Assembly: GCF_002900975.1 (NCBI RefSeq)
Contig: NZ_PJON01000001.1
Span: forward strand, 496,001-560,000
Length of the DNA stretch: 64,000 nucleotides
Direction of reading: 5' to 3'
DNA from: Tabrizicola aquatica
GTDB lineage: Bacteria > Pseudomonadota > Alphaproteobacteria > Rhodobacterales > Rhodobacteraceae
In this document: one piece after another, positions 18,463-45,361 of the stretch
Layout: the number at the start of each line of letters is the position of its first letter
Position numbering within the stretch: position 1 is the stretch's first letter
Notes under the pieces: generated by a model
The model's database searches: none
Told to the model about the DNA's origin: nothing
Seen by the model: only the letters and a program-made list of their open reading frames with translations
Program-made: the position numbers and the translations under genes

Positions 18463-18930
18463 TTAGTACTCGCCCGGACGGGCGCCGGCTTCGGGCTTCG
18501 CTTCGACCGGGGGCTCGGCGGTTGCGGTGGCGGTGCGGGCGCGTTCTTCCATGAACGAGTCGAACTCGGTCTTGTCCTTCGAGGTGCGCAGCCGCTGCAG
18601 GAAGGATTCGAACGCTTCCTGCTCTTCTTCCAGCCGGCGCAGGGCCTCGGCCTTGTAGCTGTCGAAGGCGTGGTTGCCGGTGGCCTGCATCATGCGCGGG
18701 CGGCTCCAGCCGGTGTCATGCGTGCGGCGCTGGCCGCAGGAACGTGCGAACATCTGTTTCCCCCAGATCAGGTAGGCCAGGATGGCAAGGCCGACGAGCG
18801 GGTTGATGACAAAGCCAAGGACCATGAAGGCGATCCAGGCCCATTTCCCCTTGGCGTCAAGCCAGGCTTCCCCCCGGCGAAAGGTGGCGCGGATCCCGCC
18901 AGGCCGGGCGGTGTCGGTATAGCTGTGCAT
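18463..18930 (-). CDS. DUF2852 membrane protein
   Basis: 155-residue protein with one or two membrane helices (GKWAWIAFMVLGFVINPLVGLAILAYLIWGKQMF, residues about 27-60). A soluble charged region with coiled-coil character follows (SYKAEALRRLEEEQEAFESFLQRLRTSKDKTEFDSFMEER), and the tail is Pro/Glu-rich. This is the DUF2852 architecture common in alphaproteobacteria; the function is unknown. The start at 18930 has a TGGAG site. Two identical-design palindromes flank its likely promoter. Confidence 0.85.
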   Translation of the reverse strand: MHSYTDTARPGGIRATFRRGEAWLDAKGKWAWIAFMVLGFVINPLVGLAILAYLIWGKQMFARSCGQRRTHDTGWSRPRMMQATGNHAFDSYKAEALRRLEEEQEAFESFLQRLRTSKDKTEFDSFMEERARTATATAEPPVEAKPEAGARPGEY

Positions 18931-18946
18931 GGGCGGTCTCCAGTTG

Positions 18947-18965
18947 ATGTGAATGTCTTTCACAT
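18947..18965. promoter_or_regulatory. Operator palindrome 1 before the DUF2852 gene
   Basis: 19-bp inverted repeat ATGTGAATGTCTTTCACAT, 17 bases upstream of the start codon. It shares the pattern ATGTGAA-N6-TYACAT-like with the second site 59 bp away. The binding protein is unknown. The spacing is one base longer than a CRP site and one shorter than a PpsR site. Confidence 0.65.
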
Positions 18966-19005
18966 GATCGAAGATGCGCTGCCTTTGCCCCCGGTTCAAG
19001 AGGGT

Positions 19006-19024
19006 ATGTGAAGATATTTTACAT
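19006..19024. promoter_or_regulatory. Operator palindrome 2 before the DUF2852 gene
   Basis: ATGTGAAGATATTTTACAT, matching operator 1 at both arms. Centre-to-centre distance is 59 bp. Together they bracket a TTGAAC -35 candidate on the minus strand, which fits repression by looping or by paired dimers (inference). Confidence 0.65.
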
Positions 19025-19064
19025 AAGCTGCCCGCAGTCCGTCCCATGCGCTTGGATGGGCGCG

Positions 19065-19094
19065 GGAAAGGGCCACCCGACGGCGGCCCTTTCC
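19065..19094. terminator. Hairpin downstream of the 39-residue Cys-rich peptide gene
   Basis: GGAAAGGGCC and its exact complement around a 10-base loop, ending the small Cys-rich operon on the minus strand. There is no U-run beyond the stem. Confidence 0.5.
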
Positions 19095-19111
19095 GATCTT
19101 ACAGCGCGGGC

Positions 19112-19231
19112 TTAGTCCTTGCAGCAGGGCATGGGCTCGTCGCAGCAGGGGCCAAAGGCGCAGCAGGTTGCGGCATAGGCCGTGCCGCCGAAGGCGAACA
19201 GAAGTGCAAGGCTAAGGATCAGTCGTTTCAT
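19112..19231 (-). CDS. 39-residue secreted Cys-rich micro-protein, putative copper binder
   Basis: The protein has a clean signal peptide (MKRLILSLALLFAFGGTAYA, residues 1-20) and a 19-residue mature part with three Cys-Cys pairs (at 23-24, 29-30 and 36-37), separated by AFGP and DEPMP. Such a peptide can hardly do anything but bind soft metal or form disulfides. A TGGAGA site lies 7 bases before the ATG. It follows a CutF/CruR-like ORF by 50 bases, the arrangement in which copper controls translation of the downstream gene. The metal and role are inferred. Confidence 0.7.
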   Translation of the reverse strand: MKRLILSLALLFAFGGTAYAATCCAFGPCCDEPMPCCKD

Positions 19232-19281
19232 GTGCCAATCTCCATACTGGCGTTTGAGGGATAGGTGACAACATCCATCCA

Positions 19282-19611
19282 TCATCCGCGAGGAGGCGGC
19301 GTAGCCGGTTGCGGCAGGGTCCCGGCCCGGGCCAGGTCAGCCAGGGGGCGCAGGCCCGCATCCGCGACGGCCAGCCCGGGTTCGGGGCCGCGCAGCGCCG
19401 GCATCCGGGCCTGACAGACGGTGCAGGCGATGCCGCAGGCGTCCAAGGCATCGGCATGGCACGGGGCCGCGCTGGCCAGCATGGGGCAACAGGGTTCGCC
19501 GGCCAGGCCCGCCGGGGCCGAGACGGCGAGGGCGATCAGCAGCCCAAGCGCCACCCAAAACTGGCGCAGCCAGCCGGAATGAACGCGAAATAAGACCGCA
19601 ACGCGTGGCAT
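19282..19611 (-). CDS. CutF/CruR-like upstream ORF with CxxxCxxC and terminal polyproline
   Basis: 109-residue ORF with one hydrophobic signal/anchor segment (residues about 18-38). A Cys-rich stretch has CC at 41-42 and CGIACTVC (CxxxCxxC) at 59-66, and the protein ends TPPPRG-stop. In Rhodobacter capsulatus cutF and Bordetella cruR, such an ORF stalls or releases ribosomes depending on copper and so controls the next gene. The same parts (Cys motif plus C-terminal proline run) are here, and the next gene encodes a Cys-rich peptide. The start has no good ribosome site and is uncertain. A plain secreted protein is the alternative. Confidence 0.55.
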   Translation of the reverse strand: MPRVAVLFRVHSGWLRQFWVALGLLIALAVSAPAGLAGEPCCPMLASAAPCHADALDACGIACTVCQARMPALRGPEPGLAVADAGLRPLADLARAGTLPQPATPPPRG

Positions 19612-19708
19612 GCCCAAGGTGATGGCACGGCCCGCAACCGCGATCCACACACATCCTGGAGAGCGGCGTGCCATTGACCCGGTCCCCGCGCCGCAGCAAG
19701 GTCGCGCC

Positions 19709-22498
19709 ATGACCCTTGCCACCCGCATCACCCGCCAGCCGATCCCCTTCGACCCCGCTGCCGCTGCCGACCTGCGCAGCGAACTGCCCGGCTTTTCGCC
19801 CAAGGTGATGGACCTGATGGCCGCCACCGCCGCTTGCAGCCCCTACCTGCGCGGCCTCATGCTGCGCGAGGCCGACTGGCTGCGCACCGCGGTCGAGGCC
19901 CCCGAGGCGGCGCTGGACACCACGCTTGCCGCCGCCGACGGCCTTGCCGCCGAGGCGCTGCCGCTGGCCCTGCGCGAAGCCAAGCGCCGCGTCGCGCTCT
20001 TGTCCGCCTTGTGCGACCTGGGCGGCGTCTGGACGCTGGAGCAGGTGACAGGCGCGCTGACCCGGCTGGCCGACCGGGCGGTCCACATTAGCCTCACCAC
20101 CCTTGTCGCCGAGGAAATCCGTCGCGGCAAACTGCCCGGCGCCAGCCCGGACGATGCCGCAACCGCGGGCGGGATGGTCGCGCTGGCGATGGGCAAGATG
20201 GGGGCGGGGGAGTTGAACTATTCCTCTGACATCGACCTGATCTGCCTGTTCGATGAAACCCGCTATCCTGGTGAGGAACAGGAAGCGCGGGCAAGCTTCA
20301 TCAAGGTCACCCGCCGGATGGCCGCGATCCTGTCGGACACGACCGACGGCTATGTCTTTCGCAGCGACCTGCGCCTGCGCCCCGACGCCAGCGTCACCCC
20401 GGTCTGCCTGTCGATGGCCGCCGCCGAGGGCTATTACGAGGCCGAGGGCCGCACCTGGGAACGCGCCGCCTACATCAAGGCGCGGCCCTGTGGCGGCGAC
20501 CTTGCGGCGGGGGAGCGGTTCCTGAAAACCCTCACCCCCTTCGTCTGGCGCAAGCACCTGGATTTCGTGGCGATCCAGGATGCCCACGACATGCGCCTGC
20601 GCATCCGCGACCACCGGGGCCTGCACGGCCCGATCACGGTGGAAGGCCACAACATGAAGCTTGGCGCGGGCGGCATCCGCGAGATCGAGTTCTTCACCCA
20701 GACCCGCCAGCTGATCGCCGGGGGCCGCGATCCCAGCTTGCGCGATCGCACCACGGTCGGCGGCCTGTCGGCGCTGGCGGCCAAAGGCTGGGTCCCGCCC
20801 GAAGTGGCCGAGGAGTTGACCACCCTCTACCGCGCCCACCGCGAGGTGGAACACCGGCTGCAAATGGTGAACGACGCCCAGACCCATTCGATGCCGACGA
20901 CCCCCGAGGGCGTCGCCCGCATCGCCGCCTTCTGTGGCCAGTCGGATGCCGAGTTCCGCCGTGATCTTCTGGACCGGCTGAACCGCACCGACCGGCTGAC
21001 CGAAGGCTTCTTCTCGCCCGGAGCGGTCGAGGATGGCCCGGAGCTTTCCGACAAGGCGCGCGAGATCACCAAGGGGTGGGAAAGCTATCCCGCGTTGCGG
21101 TCCGACCGCGCGCAAGCCATTTTCCGGCGCTTGCGCCCGCGTTTCCTTAAGGGTCTGGCCCGCGCGGCGAACCCGGACGAGGCGCTGGCCGCGCTGGATG
21201 CCTTCCTGGCAAAGCTGCCGGCCGGGGTGCAGCTTTTCGCGCTGTTCGAGGCGAACCCGACGCTCATTGACCTCATCATCGACATCGCCGGATCGGCCCC
21301 GGCGCTGGCGCAATACCTGGCGCGCAACGCCGCCGTGCTGGACGGGGTGATCGGCGGTAGTTTCTGGGGCGACTGGCCGGGCACCGCTGCCCTTCGGGCA
21401 GAACTGCACGCCCGCCTTGCGCCCGCGCCGGACTATGAGGGCCGGTTGGACATGGCGCGGCGCTGGATGAAGGAATGGCACTTCCGCATCGGTGTTCACC
21501 ACCTGCGCGGCCTGATCGACGGATTCGAGGCCGGAAAACAGTATGCCGACCTGGCCGAGGCCGTGGTGCAGGTGATCTGGTCCGAGGTGACGACGGATTT
21601 CACCCGCAAACACGGGCCGATGCCGGGCCGAGGTGCGGTGGTGATCGGCATGGGGTCGATGGGGGCGGCGCGGCTGAACGCGGGCTCTGACCTCGATCTG
21701 ATCGTGATCTATGACGACGCCGGGGTCGAAGGCTCGGACGGCCCGCGCCCCTTGGCGACGCGCCCCTATTACGCCCGCCTGACCCAGGCGCTGGTGACGG
21801 CGCTGACCGCGCAGATGCCGGAAGGTCGCCTTTACGAGGTGGACATGCGCCTGCGCCCCTCGGGCCGGGCGGGTCCGGTGGCGACCAGCCTGCACAGCTT
21901 CTCGACCTACCAGGAAACCGAGGCCTGGACCTGGGAACACCTGGCCCTGACCCGCGCACGGGTGCTGGCCGGCGAGCCGACCCTGGCCGGCGAGGTCGAG
22001 GACTTCCGGCGCGATCTTTTGCAGCGCAAGGGGCAGGGCGCGCGGGTCAAGCCGGACGTGGCCGACATGCGCGCCCGGCTGGCCGCCGCGAAACCGGCGC
22101 AAGGGGCCTGGGAGGCAAAGAACGGCCCCGGACGGATCATGGACATCGAACTGGCGGCGCAGACGGTGGCGCTGCTCTCGGGCAGCCCCGCCCGCAGCGT
22201 CGAACGCCAGATCGCGGCGGGGGCGGGCCGCCAATTGCCGCAATCGGACGCGCAGGCGCTGACGACTGCCTACAGGCTGATGTGGCGGCTGCATGCGGCG
22301 GCGCGTCTGCTCAGCGAGCGGGCGCTGGACTGGGAGAGCCTGGGCGAGGGCGGTCGCGCCTTTGTCCTGCGCGAGGCCGGGGCATCGGATGCAGACGTGC
22401 TGGCGCAGCAGCTGGCGCAAGCCGTGGCGGAAGCAGAGACAGCGGTGACGCGGCTGGTGGGGACGGCGGAGGGGGAGACGGGCGATGGAGCTGGCTGA
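19709..22498 (+). CDS. glnE: Glutamine synthetase adenylyltransferase/adenylyl-removing enzyme
   Basis: 929-residue bifunctional enzyme that adenylylates GlnA when nitrogen is plentiful and removes AMP when it is scarce, under PII control. Two nucleotidyltransferase domains are present, each with the G/S-S-D-x-D metal motif: NYSSDIDLICLFD (about residue 170) and NAGSDLDLIVIYD (about 660). Each is followed by a D-x-R-L-R-P motif (SDLRLRPDAS, VDMRLRPSGRAGP). The start at 19709 avoids a long upstream extension shared with the divergent small ORF. It overlaps the next gene by 14 bases. Confidence 0.96.
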   Translation: MTLATRITRQPIPFDPAAAADLRSELPGFSPKVMDLMAATAACSPYLRGLMLREADWLRTAVEAPEAALDTTLAAADGLAAEALPLALREAKRRVALLSALCDLGGVWTLEQVTGALTRLADRAVHISLTTLVAEEIRRGKLPGASPDDAATAGGMVALAMGKMGAGELNYSSDIDLICLFDETRYPGEEQEARASFIKVTRRMAAILSDTTDGYVFRSDLRLRPDASVTPVCLSMAAAEGYYEAEGRTWERAAYIKARPCGGDLAAGERFLKTLTPFVWRKHLDFVAIQDAHDMRLRIRDHRGLHGPITVEGHNMKLGAGGIREIEFFTQTRQLIAGGRDPSLRDRTTVGGLSALAAKGWVPPEVAEELTTLYRAHREVEHRLQMVNDAQTHSMPTTPEGVARIAAFCGQSDAEFRRDLLDRLNRTDRLTEGFFSPGAVEDGPELSDKAREITKGWESYPALRSDRAQAIFRRLRPRFLKGLARAANPDEALAALDAFLAKLPAGVQLFALFEANPTLIDLIIDIAGSAPALAQYLARNAAVLDGVIGGSFWGDWPGTAALRAELHARLAPAPDYEGRLDMARRWMKEWHFRIGVHHLRGLIDGFEAGKQYADLAEAVVQVIWSEVTTDFTRKHGPMPGRGAVVIGMGSMGAARLNAGSDLDLIVIYDDAGVEGSDGPRPLATRPYYARLTQALVTALTAQMPEGRLYEVDMRLRPSGRAGPVATSLHSFSTYQETEAWTWEHLALTRARVLAGEPTLAGEVEDFRRDLLQRKGQGARVKPDVADMRARLAAAKPAQGAWEAKNGPGRIMDIELAAQTVALLSGSPARSVERQIAAGAGRQLPQSDAQALTTAYRLMWRLHAAARLLSERALDWESLGEGGRAFVLREAGASDADVLAQQLAQAVAEAETAVTRLVGTAEGETGDGAG

Positions 22499-41248: not shown

Positions 41249-44200
41249 ATGTCGACGATTACCGGTACTGGCGGCGATGACTTTCGCAACGACAGCATCA
41301 TTGGCACGGCGGGTGATTACTATGACTTGCAGGGCGGGGACGACACGCTGTTTGCAGGTGGCGGCAACGATACCGTCTTCGGCGGCTCTGGCGATGATCG
41401 CATCGACGGCGGGACCGGAAACGACGCCCTGTACGGTGGCAGCGGCCTTGACAGTCTGGTTGGCGGTGCTGGCAATGATACGCTGTTCGGCGGAACAGAC
41501 GCAGGTGGCTTCGACACCCTGATCGGCGGCGATGGCTTTGACTATGTCAGCTACTCTGGCCTCGGATCGGGTGTAACCGTCAACCTGGGCACGGGCATTG
41601 CCTCGGGCGGTGGCGGCGATGACCTGATTTCGCAGGTCGAAGGTGTGATCGGCGGCAACGCGGCCGACAACATCACCGGCAACGACGGCAACAACGATCT
41701 GCGCGGCTTGGGCGGCAACGATACGATCAACGGCGGCCTTGGCGACGACACGATCGAGGGCGGTCTGGGCAACGACAACATGGTCGGCGGCGGCGGCAAC
41801 GATACGCTGTCCTTCGACAATGCCGCGGCCGGGGTCACGGTGAACCTTGGCAACGGAACGGCCAGCGGCAGCCAGACTGGCAGCGATACGTTCAGCGAGT
41901 TCGAAGGCGTCCTCGGCTCGGCCTTTGGGGACAACATCACTGGCGATTCTGGTGCGAACACCATCGACGGCGGCGTCGGCAACGATACCATCGACGGCGG
42001 GGCTGGCAATGACCTGCTGATCGGCGGACCCGAGGCCGGCCAGCCGACCTCGGTCAACCCGGTGCCCCTGGATTTCAATTGGAACCTTGCCGGCGGAGAT
42101 GCGGCACCGATTTCGCAGGGCTATACACAGGATACCGGCGGGATCGAAGTTACGGTCAACTACACCGGGGGCTTTGCCGGATCGACCATCACGGTCGAGA
42201 CCGGGGCTGCCACGCCGGGCGAAGTTGCGAACGGCACGATCTACAACAACGCCGGTGCCGGTGAGACGTTCAACCCGAATTCCTCGGCCGAACTTTATCG
42301 CCCCGGTGGGCAGAGTGGCACGGCTACGCCACTGACCACGCTTCAGCTGGACTTTACCGCTGTTGAGGGTTCGGGCTACCTTGATGAGGTTCGCAATGTC
42401 GCTTTCCGCATCTCGGACATTGATGACGACGGCTTTCGCGACATCGTCACCGTCCGGGCCTATGATGCCGAAGGGAATGAAGTCCCGGTCAGTCTGACTG
42501 AAACCTCTGGTTCGCTTACGACGAATGGTAACATCGTCAATGCAATCAACGGCACGGGAAACCTGGAACCTTCTGACGCTGGTGGCTCGGTTCTGGTAAC
42601 GATCGCAGGCCCCGTTGCCCGCGTCGTGATTGAGTACGGCAACCTTGAGAATAACCAGCAGGCGATCAACGTCTCGGACGTTCAGTTCCAGGCGGTTCCG
42701 GCAATCGACAACGACAACATCGTTGGCGGCACCGGCGCGGACACGATCCTCGGCGGCAGCGGCAATGACACGATCGATGGCGGCGCCGATGCCGATTCCA
42801 TCTTCGGCGGCACGGGCAACGACCAGATCCTGGGCGGGGCGGGGGCCGACAGCATCTTTGGCGGCGACGGCAACGACCGCGTCAACGCCGGGTCCGAGAA
42901 TGACGTGGTCGACGGTGGCCTTGGGGCGGATTCGATCCAGGGCGATGCGGGCGACGACAGCCTGGTCGGCGGCGACGGTGCTGACACGCTGGAAGGCGGT
43001 ATCGGCAATGATCAGCTGTTCGGCGGGGCGGGGTCTGACTCGCTGGACGGCGGGGCCGGAGATGACACACTGACAGGCGGGGCCGGCAACGACTTCCTCC
43101 GCGGCGATAGCGGCATGGACTTCGCCGACTATTCCGGCTCGGCTGCCGGGGTGAACGTCGATCTGGCCGCCGGAACCGGTCTGGGCGGCGATGCGGAGGG
43201 CGACTCGCTTTCGGGCATCGATGGCCTGTTCGGCTCGGACCAGGCGGATACGCTGCGCGGCTTCGGCGGCTCTTCGACTGTGCCGGGCGACGCCTATACC
43301 AACGTGTTTTACGGCAACGGCGGCAACGACATTCTGGAGGGCTTCGGCTCTAATGACAGCCTGTTCGGCGGCACCGGCGACGACAGCATCGACGGCGGCG
43401 CGGACAACGACTTTATCCAGGGCGACAGCGGGGCAGACAGCCTGCTCGGCGGTTCGGGTGACGACACCATCGACGGCGGCACCGAGAACGACCGCATCTT
43501 CGGCAACGAGGGCAACGACAGCCTTCTGGGTGGGGCAGGCGACGACAGCATCGACGGCGGCGCGAACGACGACCTGATCTTCGGCGGTGCTGGCAACGAC
43601 AACCTTCTGGGTGGGGCCGGCAACGACAACATCGATGGCGGCGCGAATGACGACGTCATTGCGGGCGGCGCGGGGTCGGACAGCATCCTTGGCAGCCTGG
43701 GCGATGACAGTATCGACGGCGGCGCCGAGAACGACCGCCTCTTCGGCAACGAGGGCAACGATACGCTGCTGGGGGATGCCGGGGACGACTCCATCGACGG
43801 CGGCGACAATGCCGATCTGCTCTTTGGCGGCATCGGCAATGACCTGATCTTCGGCGGCACCGGCAACGACACCTTCCAGGGTGGCGCCGGCGTCGACTCG
43901 CTGTATGGCGGGGTCGGAAACGACCTCTTCCTCTATGCGGCCACCGACTTCGACGGCACCCTGACGAACGAGATCGTCGATGGTGGTGGCACCCTGCCGT
44001 CTCCGGCCGATGACTTCGACGTCCTTGATCTGCGCGAGTTTGGCAAGGCGCGCGTCGATATCGTCTTTACCAATAACGACCGGGGCTCCGAATCCGGCAC
44101 CGTCACGATCTTTGCCGCCGATGGCATCACGCAGATCGGGACGATCAGCTTCACCGAGATCGAGCAGGTCATCCCCTGCTTCACGCCAGGCACGCTGATC

Positions 44201-44761
44201 CAGACCGCGCGTGGCGAGGTTCCGGTTGAAACCCTGCAGGCCGGTGATCTGGTGATGACACGGGATAATGGCCTGCAACCGTTGCGCTGGGTGGGACAGC
44301 GTCGGCTGTCCATGGCGCAACTGATGGCCGAGCCCGACCTTCAGCCGGTGCAGATCGGTCGTGGCGCGTTGTCAGGGCAAGGCCCGGACCGGGACATGCT
44401 GGTCTCGCCGCAGCACCGCATCCTGGTCGAGGGCGCGCGGGCCGAGATGCTGTTCGGCGAGGCCGAGGTTCTGGTTCCCGCCAAGCACCTGGTCGGCAAG
44501 GCCCATGTGACGCGCGTTCTGCCCGAGGCCGGGGTGACCTATATCCACATCCTCTTCGACCGGCACGAGATCGTTCAGTCCGACGGGATCTGGACCGAAA
44601 GTTTCCAACCGGCCGAGCGGATGCTTTCGGCGATGGAGGCCGAGGTCCGGGCCGAGGTTCTGGCGCTGTTCCCGCAACTGGAGCAGTCGGATCAGGTCTT
44701 TGAAGGAGCCCGCCTGTCGCTGAAGGCGCATGAAGCGCGGGTGCTTTTTGCCGCCGAATAG
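41249..44761 (+). CDS. RTX calcium-binding repeat protein with C-terminal Hint domain
   Basis: 1170-residue very acidic protein, probably exported by a type I system. It has nonapeptide GGxGxDxLx repeats at about 20-262, a non-repeat beta-rich domain at about 268-488 (possibly carbohydrate- or surface-binding), a second RTX block at about 490-897 and a linker. A Hint domain starts at Cys977 (VIPCFTPGTLIQTARGEVPVETLQAGD) and contains MLVSPQHRILV and RHEIVQSDGIWTESFQP. The Hint replaces the usual C-terminal secretion signal region. The start at 41249 follows AGAGGA. No T1SS genes are nearby. Confidence 0.9.
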   Translation: MSTITGTGGDDFRNDSIIGTAGDYYDLQGGDDTLFAGGGNDTVFGGSGDDRIDGGTGNDALYGGSGLDSLVGGAGNDTLFGGTDAGGFDTLIGGDGFDYVSYSGLGSGVTVNLGTGIASGGGGDDLISQVEGVIGGNAADNITGNDGNNDLRGLGGNDTINGGLGDDTIEGGLGNDNMVGGGGNDTLSFDNAAAGVTVNLGNGTASGSQTGSDTFSEFEGVLGSAFGDNITGDSGANTIDGGVGNDTIDGGAGNDLLIGGPEAGQPTSVNPVPLDFNWNLAGGDAAPISQGYTQDTGGIEVTVNYTGGFAGSTITVETGAATPGEVANGTIYNNAGAGETFNPNSSAELYRPGGQSGTATPLTTLQLDFTAVEGSGYLDEVRNVAFRISDIDDDGFRDIVTVRAYDAEGNEVPVSLTETSGSLTTNGNIVNAINGTGNLEPSDAGGSVLVTIAGPVARVVIEYGNLENNQQAINVSDVQFQAVPAIDNDNIVGGTGADTILGGSGNDTIDGGADADSIFGGTGNDQILGGAGADSIFGGDGNDRVNAGSENDVVDGGLGADSIQGDAGDDSLVGGDGADTLEGGIGNDQLFGGAGSDSLDGGAGDDTLTGGAGNDFLRGDSGMDFADYSGSAAGVNVDLAAGTGLGGDAEGDSLSGIDGLFGSDQADTLRGFGGSSTVPGDAYTNVFYGNGGNDILEGFGSNDSLFGGTGDDSIDGGADNDFIQGDSGADSLLGGSGDDTIDGGTENDRIFGNEGNDSLLGGAGDDSIDGGANDDLIFGGAGNDNLLGGAGNDNIDGGANDDVIAGGAGSDSILGSLGDDSIDGGAENDRLFGNEGNDTLLGDAGDDSIDGGDNADLLFGGIGNDLIFGGTGNDTFQGGAGVDSLYGGVGNDLFLYAATDFDGTLTNEIVDGGGTLPSPADDFDVLDLREFGKARVDIVFTNNDRGSESGTVTIFAADGITQIGTISFTEIEQVIPCFTPGTLIQTARGEVPVETLQAGDLVMTRDNGLQPLRWVGQRRLSMAQLMAEPDLQPVQIGRGALSGQGPDRDMLVSPQHRILVEGARAEMLFGEAEVLVPAKHLVGKAHVTRVLPEAGVTYIHILFDRHEIVQSDGIWTESFQPAERMLSAMEAEVRAEVLALFPQLEQSDQVFEGARLSLKAHEARVLFAAE

Positions 44762-44764
44762 GGA

Positions 44765-45361
44765 TCAGCCGCCTGCGCGCCAGTCGGCCCAATCCTCGGG
44801 CGTGTCAAGGTCAAGAATGGCCATCGGGCCGGGCAGGGGGATCACCCTGACCCGGTCTTGATGTTGGCGCAGAACGGCGCGGCCGCCTTCATCGCCGGTA
44901 ACACTTTGTAAGTGCGGCCAAAGGTCGTGCGGAAAGATCGCCGGGTGGCCGGGTTCGCCTTCGGCCGTGCCGCCGCGCAGGATCAAACCGGGTTCGCCGC
45001 GAAAGCGCGCGATCAGGTGGGACAGCGCGGCCGTGGTAAAGCCCGGCATGTCGGCGGGCAGGATCATCACCCCGTCCTGCGGCCCGCCCGGCAGCGCCGC
45101 CACGCCCCGCACCAGCGAGCGTGACATGCCCAGATTTGCGTCCGGCACCTCGACGATCCGCAGATCCAGTCCCGCCAGCGCAGCGCGGCGCAGGGGCGCG
45201 TCCGGTGGCACGGTCACGGTGACCGGCGCGCCCGTCGCCAGGGCCAGGGCCGCCATATGCCGCAGCAGCGGCTGGCCACCCACCGGCTGCAGCAGCTTGT
45301 CGGCCCCCCGCATCCGGGACGAGGCCCCGGCGCCAAGGATCAGGATGTGGACGGTCACCAT
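44765..45361 (-). CDS. mocA: MobA-like nucleotidyltransferase (molybdenum cofactor cytidylyltransferase-like)
   Basis: 198-residue NTP-transferase. The N-terminal nucleotide-binding loop LGAGASSRMRGADKLLQPVGGQPLLRH is the LAGG-type motif. MILPADMPGFT holds the metal-binding Asp, and GHPAIFPHDLWPHL is followed by DLDTPEDW, the typical C-terminal motif. MocA transfers CMP to molybdopterin for the xanthine-oxidase family; a MobA-related enzyme cannot be excluded. It converges on the RTX gene with only 3 bases between stops. Confidence 0.78.
   Translation of the reverse strand: MVTVHILILGAGASSRMRGADKLLQPVGGQPLLRHMAALALATGAPVTVTVPPDAPLRRAALAGLDLRIVEVPDANLGMSRSLVRGVAALPGGPQDGVMILPADMPGFTTAALSHLIARFRGEPGLILRGGTAEGEPGHPAIFPHDLWPHLQSVTGDEGGRAVLRQHQDRVRVIPLPGPMAILDLDTPEDWADWRAGG

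Follow-up and report, generated by a model that had tools for sequence, protein, structure and literature searches.

Two short genes follow one another on the minus strand of the window, the 64,000-nucleotide stretch of Tabrizicola aquatica DNA that was analysed. The first, a CutF-like leader ORF of 109 aa (19282–19611 (-)), combines a predicted Sec signal with a Cys motif and a PPPR end. The signal was predicted by hydropathy only, as a hydrophobic stretch with a 15-residue mean of 2.4 ahead of the residues GLAGEPCC. The translation contains six Cys in total, including the putative metal-sensing motif C59-G-I-A-C63-T-V-C66 (CxxxCxxC; codons at 19414–19437 (-)), in which C59 and C63 lie 46 and 42 residues ahead of P105, where the PPP begins. 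The C-terminus reads ATPPPRG, and the codons of its Pro-Pro-Pro-Arg (CCG CCT CCT CGC, 19288–19299 (-)) represent a putative stall motif. Where the leader starts is uncertain: no clear ribosome site precedes the ATG at 19611, and translation from an in-frame ATG at 19674 would yield a product of 130 aa.

The second gene, whose ATG is located at 19231, 50 bases downstream of the leader stop, encodes an exported Cys-Cys micro-peptide of 39 aa (19112–19231 (-)) that is divided into a predicted signal, MKRLILSLALLFAFGGTAYA, and a predicted mature part, ATCCAFGPCCDEPMPCCKD. The GGAG ribosome-binding site of this gene (19240–19243 (-)) is positioned 8 bases upstream of the ATG. All 6 Cys in the 19 residues of the predicted mature peptide occur as three CC pairs, and the short chain with its clustered, dense Cys gives it a metallothionein-like character. 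The preliminary description of this DNA had reported the 109-residue ORF with CxxxCxxC and a Pro-Pro-Pro-Arg-Gly tail, a secreted peptide with three Cys-Cys pairs in 19 mature residues encoded 50 bases further on, and the hexamers CCTCCT and TGGAGA; the two genes are indeed present as described, with the secretion signal of the peptide being a prediction, and the hexamers are found at exactly 19296–19291 and 19244–19239, respectively. An ATGATG additionally overlaps the leader stop (ATGA, 19285–19282) in frame with the peptide, and an N-extended form of 57 aa is possible (19112–19285 (-)).

Dense thiols are also a feature of bacterial metallothioneins and of the Csp copper-storage proteins, but these are larger and are mostly cytosolic or Tat-exported bundles, whereas the window peptide has 19 residues after a Sec signal and carries every Cys in a vicinal pair. 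A Cu4S6 cluster would suit its six Cys. A search of the literature on exported or periplasmic metallothionein-like peptides returned nothing pertinent among the papers listed, and no match was obtained in the PDB. Assignment of the peptide to the PA0050 family (NF047882) was rejected, as the score was 17.6 bits against a cut-off of 45 and the match was gone once the signal peptide had been replaced.

A G+C-rich hairpin of 13 bp without a T run follows the peptide stop (19065–19094 (-)) and is likely the 3' end of the transcript, which therefore plausibly holds just the leader and peptide genes. Around the unit, a simple scan for the terminator consensus was negative, no match to the sigma-70 promoter consensus was obtained, and the unit had no match in Rfam. 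In terms of codon bias, the own frame was the best of six for both the leader and the peptide ORF (0.13 and 0.31 bits per codon, respectively), with negative values in the remaining five frames; the scores of both ORFs are lower than those of long genes.

To assess how rare the two genes are, 1.264 Mb of this genome, comprising the window and sixty 20-kb stretches, were scanned blind with fixed rules, a leader being called when an export stretch was combined with a CxxC or CxxxC 25–70 residues ahead of a terminal PP. Four leader-like calls resulted, namely the window leader, one situated between a CueR gene and a multicopper oxidase gene, and two that are apparently spurious, while only one exported peptide, that of the window, had three or more CC pairs. 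As the only such peptide of the whole sample and one of its four leader-like calls are adjacent to one another, the pair is not a chance assembly.

A lineage-specific unit that recurs in Sphingobium

The unit is flanked by glnE (starting at 19709 (+)) and by a DUF2852-like gene starting at 18930 (-). This interval was compared across the genus at 29 measurable loci, the window and 28 others. A segment of approximately 650 bases (19025–19673 (-)), containing the leader, the peptide gene and the hairpin, had no homology at the same site in any of the 28 other congener loci, while both of its edges were homologous; in the congeners the interval is either short and empty or occupied by another gene, of 155 aa and beginning MSKSLARV (window 18930–19709, L037–L066). 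By this comparison the unit is a lineage-specific cassette at a variable site, since the segment is unique while both edges match the congeners.

Relatives of either product were scarce. For the leader, no reliable sequence relative was found in 295 family genomes, 32 genus genomes, GTDB contigs (pattern-based) or plasmids; one marginal match in a family genome (E 7.6e-4) was dismissed on inspection. No close relative of the peptide was found in the 295 family or 32 genus genomes. Single-sequence matches in four family genomes (G225, G163, G141 and G044) and the genus matches proved spurious on inspection or lay inside long unrelated frames, and profile matches in three congeners (G302, G308 and G310) owed their likeness to the signal peptide of a different protein of 94–130 aa. 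The DNA pattern for CC-A-xx-P-CC matched in 55 of the 295 family genomes, and none of the 30 loci read, which make up about half of the matching places, encoded a signal-bearing peptide. A match on a plasmid of Rhodobacteraceae SC52 (E 6) was discarded for want of a supporting ORF.

A tblastn search of the peptide against plasmids gave a single weak match (E 0.6), on a plasmid of Sphingobium baderi. There, an exported leader of 112 aa has a CGLC motif and terminates in PAPPPPRIA; a CC peptide of 64 aa (MKMISIMGAALALTVPATAFA-AGCCADAPCCKEGTDPCKDGKSCCDE..., a signal plus GCCADAPCCKEGTDPCKDGKSCC) is encoded 45 bases downstream of it. The two peptides are 49% identical over the aligned part, while the leaders have their layout alone in common (34% on a gapped alignment). 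The weakness of the E value is compensated by the matching neighbour leader, since this was outside the search, and the S. baderi pair is an independent recurrence of the leader and CC-peptide unit. The preliminary description had proposed that relatives be searched for the pair and had made its reading depend on homologues keeping the Cys motif or the proline end; the S. baderi plasmid supplies such a pair, with both features retained. In S. chungbukense, a peptide 95% identical to that of S. baderi is intact, and the leader is frame-shifted and without a stop in the draft (L098:3617-4192); the frameshift may be a sequencing error, or it may reflect decay of a leader that this species can do without.

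The surroundings of the S. baderi pair include a CopA-type P-type ATPase approximately 4 kb away, a CopM/DUF305-like protein, a glutaredoxin and a MerR-family regulator that scored best against MerR, under every cut-off. No copper gene was recognised adjoining the unit in the window, and the copper context comes from the Sphingobium relative only, whose pair adjoins the CopA-type pump and the CopM-like protein. A class-wide profile search retrieved a third CC peptide, MSGRGLALMLAPTAAFAATPCCDGGDCCNDVAMPCCE (AATPCCDGGDCCNDVAMPCCE), on the Tistrella mobilis plasmid NC_017958 (L189:7700-11900). Upstream of its gene are one for a ZntA-type ATPase bearing several heavy-metal domains and one resembling lspA; the locus has a CadR/PbrR regulator and no leader ORF. 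This suggests that the CC peptide family serves other metals as well, and the metal of the window unit may not be copper, since the leaderless T. mobilis peptide adjoins a Cd/Zn/Pb pump.

The contexts of the peptide relatives point to metal binding. A role as a secreted Cys-rich bacteriocin or signal, unconnected with metals, would agree with the peptide being small, exported, Cys-rich and lineage-specific, but the relatives sit in metal-resistance clusters, the leader is of the metal-sensor type, and no genes for maturation, export or immunity were recognised beside the peptide gene, making this explanation highly improbable. A larger but still low chance is given to the leader sensing another soft metal (Cd, Zn, Pb, Hg or Ag) and the peptide acting as a general thiol metal buffer. 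Both the pump and regulator beside the T. mobilis peptide and the affinity of the S. baderi regulator to MerR speak for such a role; the paired S. baderi locus, however, is the one that adjoins copper genes, and it is copper genes that most Cys-type CutF leaders precede.

Layout of the leader compared with CutF, CruR and CopL

Leaders of this kind are already known (PMC9973294, PMC8456105, PMC9426467). The window leader resembles CutF of the Rhodobacter capsulatus cutFOG operon (PMC9973294, PMC8456105) in being short and exported, in having a CxxxC with PPPR near the C-terminus 41–46 residues further on, and in preceding the next gene by a short gap (50 bases, against 40 for CutF); a structure shutting the next ribosome site, a further trait of CutF, is a suggestive prediction here. 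Differences lie in the six Cys of the window leader, in the anti-ribosome-site bases, which are predicted here to be the proline codons and are placed in an intergenic stem-loop in the CutF papers, and in the target, which is a 39-aa Cys-Cys peptide here and the Tat-exported multicopper oxidase CutO for CutF. Copper-induced translation by CutF requires the Cys motif, the Pro end, the Sec signal and the stem-loop (PMC9973294).

The functional Cys pair of R. capsulatus CutF, C69/C73, lies 45/41 residues ahead of the Pro motif P114PPR (PMC9973294, PMC8456105), compared with 46/42 in the window leader. The corresponding distance is 41 in S. baderi and 45 in the CueR-linked leader of the window's own genome; in relatives, the leaders found at multicopper-oxidase loci and elsewhere have 42–47, with a few longer. 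The clustering is informative because the scan admitted distances of 25–70. According to the CutF authors, such a spacing means that, with the Pro motif still inside the ribosome, the Cys motif would be at the periplasmic mouth of SecY.

CruR and other DUF2946 leaders, described from Bordetella pertussis (PMC9426467), are likewise upstream ORFs with a Cys motif and a C-terminal Pro motif, and CruR is copper-sensing. They differ in their RAPP end, in a long intergenic region (~160 bases, against 50 here) and in a Rho-dependent shut-off by copper; CruR does not require a Sec signal, and copper acts in the direction opposite to that in CutF. Within the class, the CruR-type leaders terminate in RAPP or RGPP. 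The window leader had no match to Pfam DUF2946 (PF11162) at E values up to 10, and it was not recovered when the genus, this genome included, was searched with PF11162 at E values up to 0.1. Comparison with the NCBIfam models gave no detectable homology. CopL of Xanthomonas and Stenotrophomonas, placed among CutF-like proteins in PMC9973294, is similarly a cis-acting leader upstream of its target, in that case a copper gene, the CopA oxidase.

By layout and spacing, the leader is CutF-like rather than CruR-like, without being filed as a proven CutF homologue. Of the CutF/CruR-type affiliation suggested initially, the CutF half agrees with the Sec-type signal, CxxxC, PPPR, short gap and 46/42 spacing, while the CruR half does not hold, the unit having neither the RAPP end nor the long intergenic region, nor a DUF2946 match. 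Its action, if any, would be CutF-like, given the spacing, the PPPR end, the predicted Sec signal and the missing DUF2946 match. The opposite arrangement, in which copper relieves a pause and Rho termination turns off a peptide that scavenges or delivers copper under scarcity, has a precedent in CruR as a related copper leader type with a Pro end (PMC9426467); it is disfavoured by the same end, gap, signal and family differences and is considered quite unlikely.

Further leaders of this layout were observed in the genus. On contig C5 of the same genome (~42750–44944; L273:2750-4944), a CueR-type regulator scoring over the cut-off is accompanied by a second CutF-like leader ending HPPAPSERPPKHLV and by a CopA-type multicopper oxidase that fits its family model only from residue 92 onward and is without a signal; this is apparently a decayed cutF-cutO locus. 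In congeners, CutF-like leaders (L159:446-733, L163:1597-1827 and L167:1492-1743(-)) are located upstream of NosR-looking, Met/His-rich exported-looking and PepSY-looking proteins, as judged by eye.

Proposed mechanism and pairing of the proline codons

Taken together, the locus is probably a two-gene operon in which translation of an exported metallothionein-like micro-peptide is governed by a leader of the CutF type that detects copper, or a comparable thiol-loving metal, during its own export. In the absence of the metal, the leader would be exported, completed and released, and its final codons CCT CCT would pair with GGAG and keep the peptide gene closed. Copper would bind the nascent CxxxCxxC at the outer mouth of the translocon, at ~42–46 residues ahead of PPPR, whereupon export would slow and the ribosome would pause on PPPR. 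The paused ribosome would cover its own proline codons, exposing the ribosome site so that the peptide is made, and the six thiols in 19 residues would bind metal in the periplasm. What was observed is the gene layout, the coding bias, the CutF-like Cys-Pro spacing, the recurrence of the pair beside a copper pump and the metal-resistance surroundings of the relatives. In this scheme we infer the pausing, copper as the signal, the RNA switching and the metal binding by the peptide, and, by analogy with CutF, induction rather than repression.

CutF/CruR leaders guard pumps, oxidases, transporters and chaperones. The earlier impression that the combination with so tiny a product is undescribed agrees with the literature, where none was found, though supplementary tables may hold one. 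Published neighbour surveys tallied Pfam domain classes or protein families, and peptides of 20–70 aa without a Pfam match would therefore escape them. If the proposed operon is real, exported micro-metallothioneins join the targets of CutF/CruR leaders, and the unit would provide a compact, metal-inducible module of 650 bp as well as a simple system for studying ribosome pausing by copper on a nascent chain.

The part played by the RNA was assessed by folding. The weak pairing between the proline codons and the ribosome site that had been suspected does appear in the predicted minimum-energy fold, where CUCC within the Pro codons (19292–19295 (-)) pairs with GGAG of the peptide gene and GCCG (19300–19297) pairs with UGGC (19237–19234); in the predicted fold of S. 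baderi the corresponding partners are CUCCG, again within Pro codons, and CGGAG. When the Pro codons were masked as they would be under a paused ribosome, the predicted openness of the site rose from 0.39 to 0.86 in the window and from 0.01 to 0.56 in S. baderi. The folds as a whole, however, were no better than those of dinucleotide shuffles (z -0.83 and +0.57, respectively), and a synonymous-codon duplex test gave p ~0.08 in each of the two species. The modelled pairing is suggestive and statistically insecure, and the RNA lock is a reasonable hypothesis rather than a result.

The unusual codon choice bears on the same question. Among 424 sampled genes, CCT accounts for 4.8% of the Pro codons and CCT-CCT for none of the 525 Pro-Pro dicodons. 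The final two prolines are the sole CCT codons of the leader, the chance of at least two CCT in three being 0.0068. Plain translational coupling, through reinitiation at the stop-overlapping ATGATG or at the ATG at 19231, would make the two products co-expressed exported metal-binding proteins with no sensing, and the ATGA overlap together with the in-frame 57-aa reading would accommodate it. The longer form, however, would put a polar extension of 18 residues before the signal peptide, the overlap is missing in S. baderi, and coupling would account neither for the terminal PPPR nor for the fixed distance between Cys and Pro or the choice of CCT-CCT; this reading is judged unlikely.

Returning to the copper-stalled leader, a more specific form of the model is entertained tentatively, at somewhat less than even chances: exported micro-metallothioneins would have their translation turned on by a copper-stalled nascent chain, and the stall codons themselves would be the RNA lock, undone by the paused ribosome sitting there. 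CCU-CCU (CCU-CCG in Sphingobium) would then both encode the arrest peptide and mimic the anti-Shine-Dalgarno sequence.

As a separate observation made by eye on predicted folds, the last leader codons of two CutF-like leaders at multicopper-oxidase loci (L223 and L229) pair with the presumed next ribosome site.
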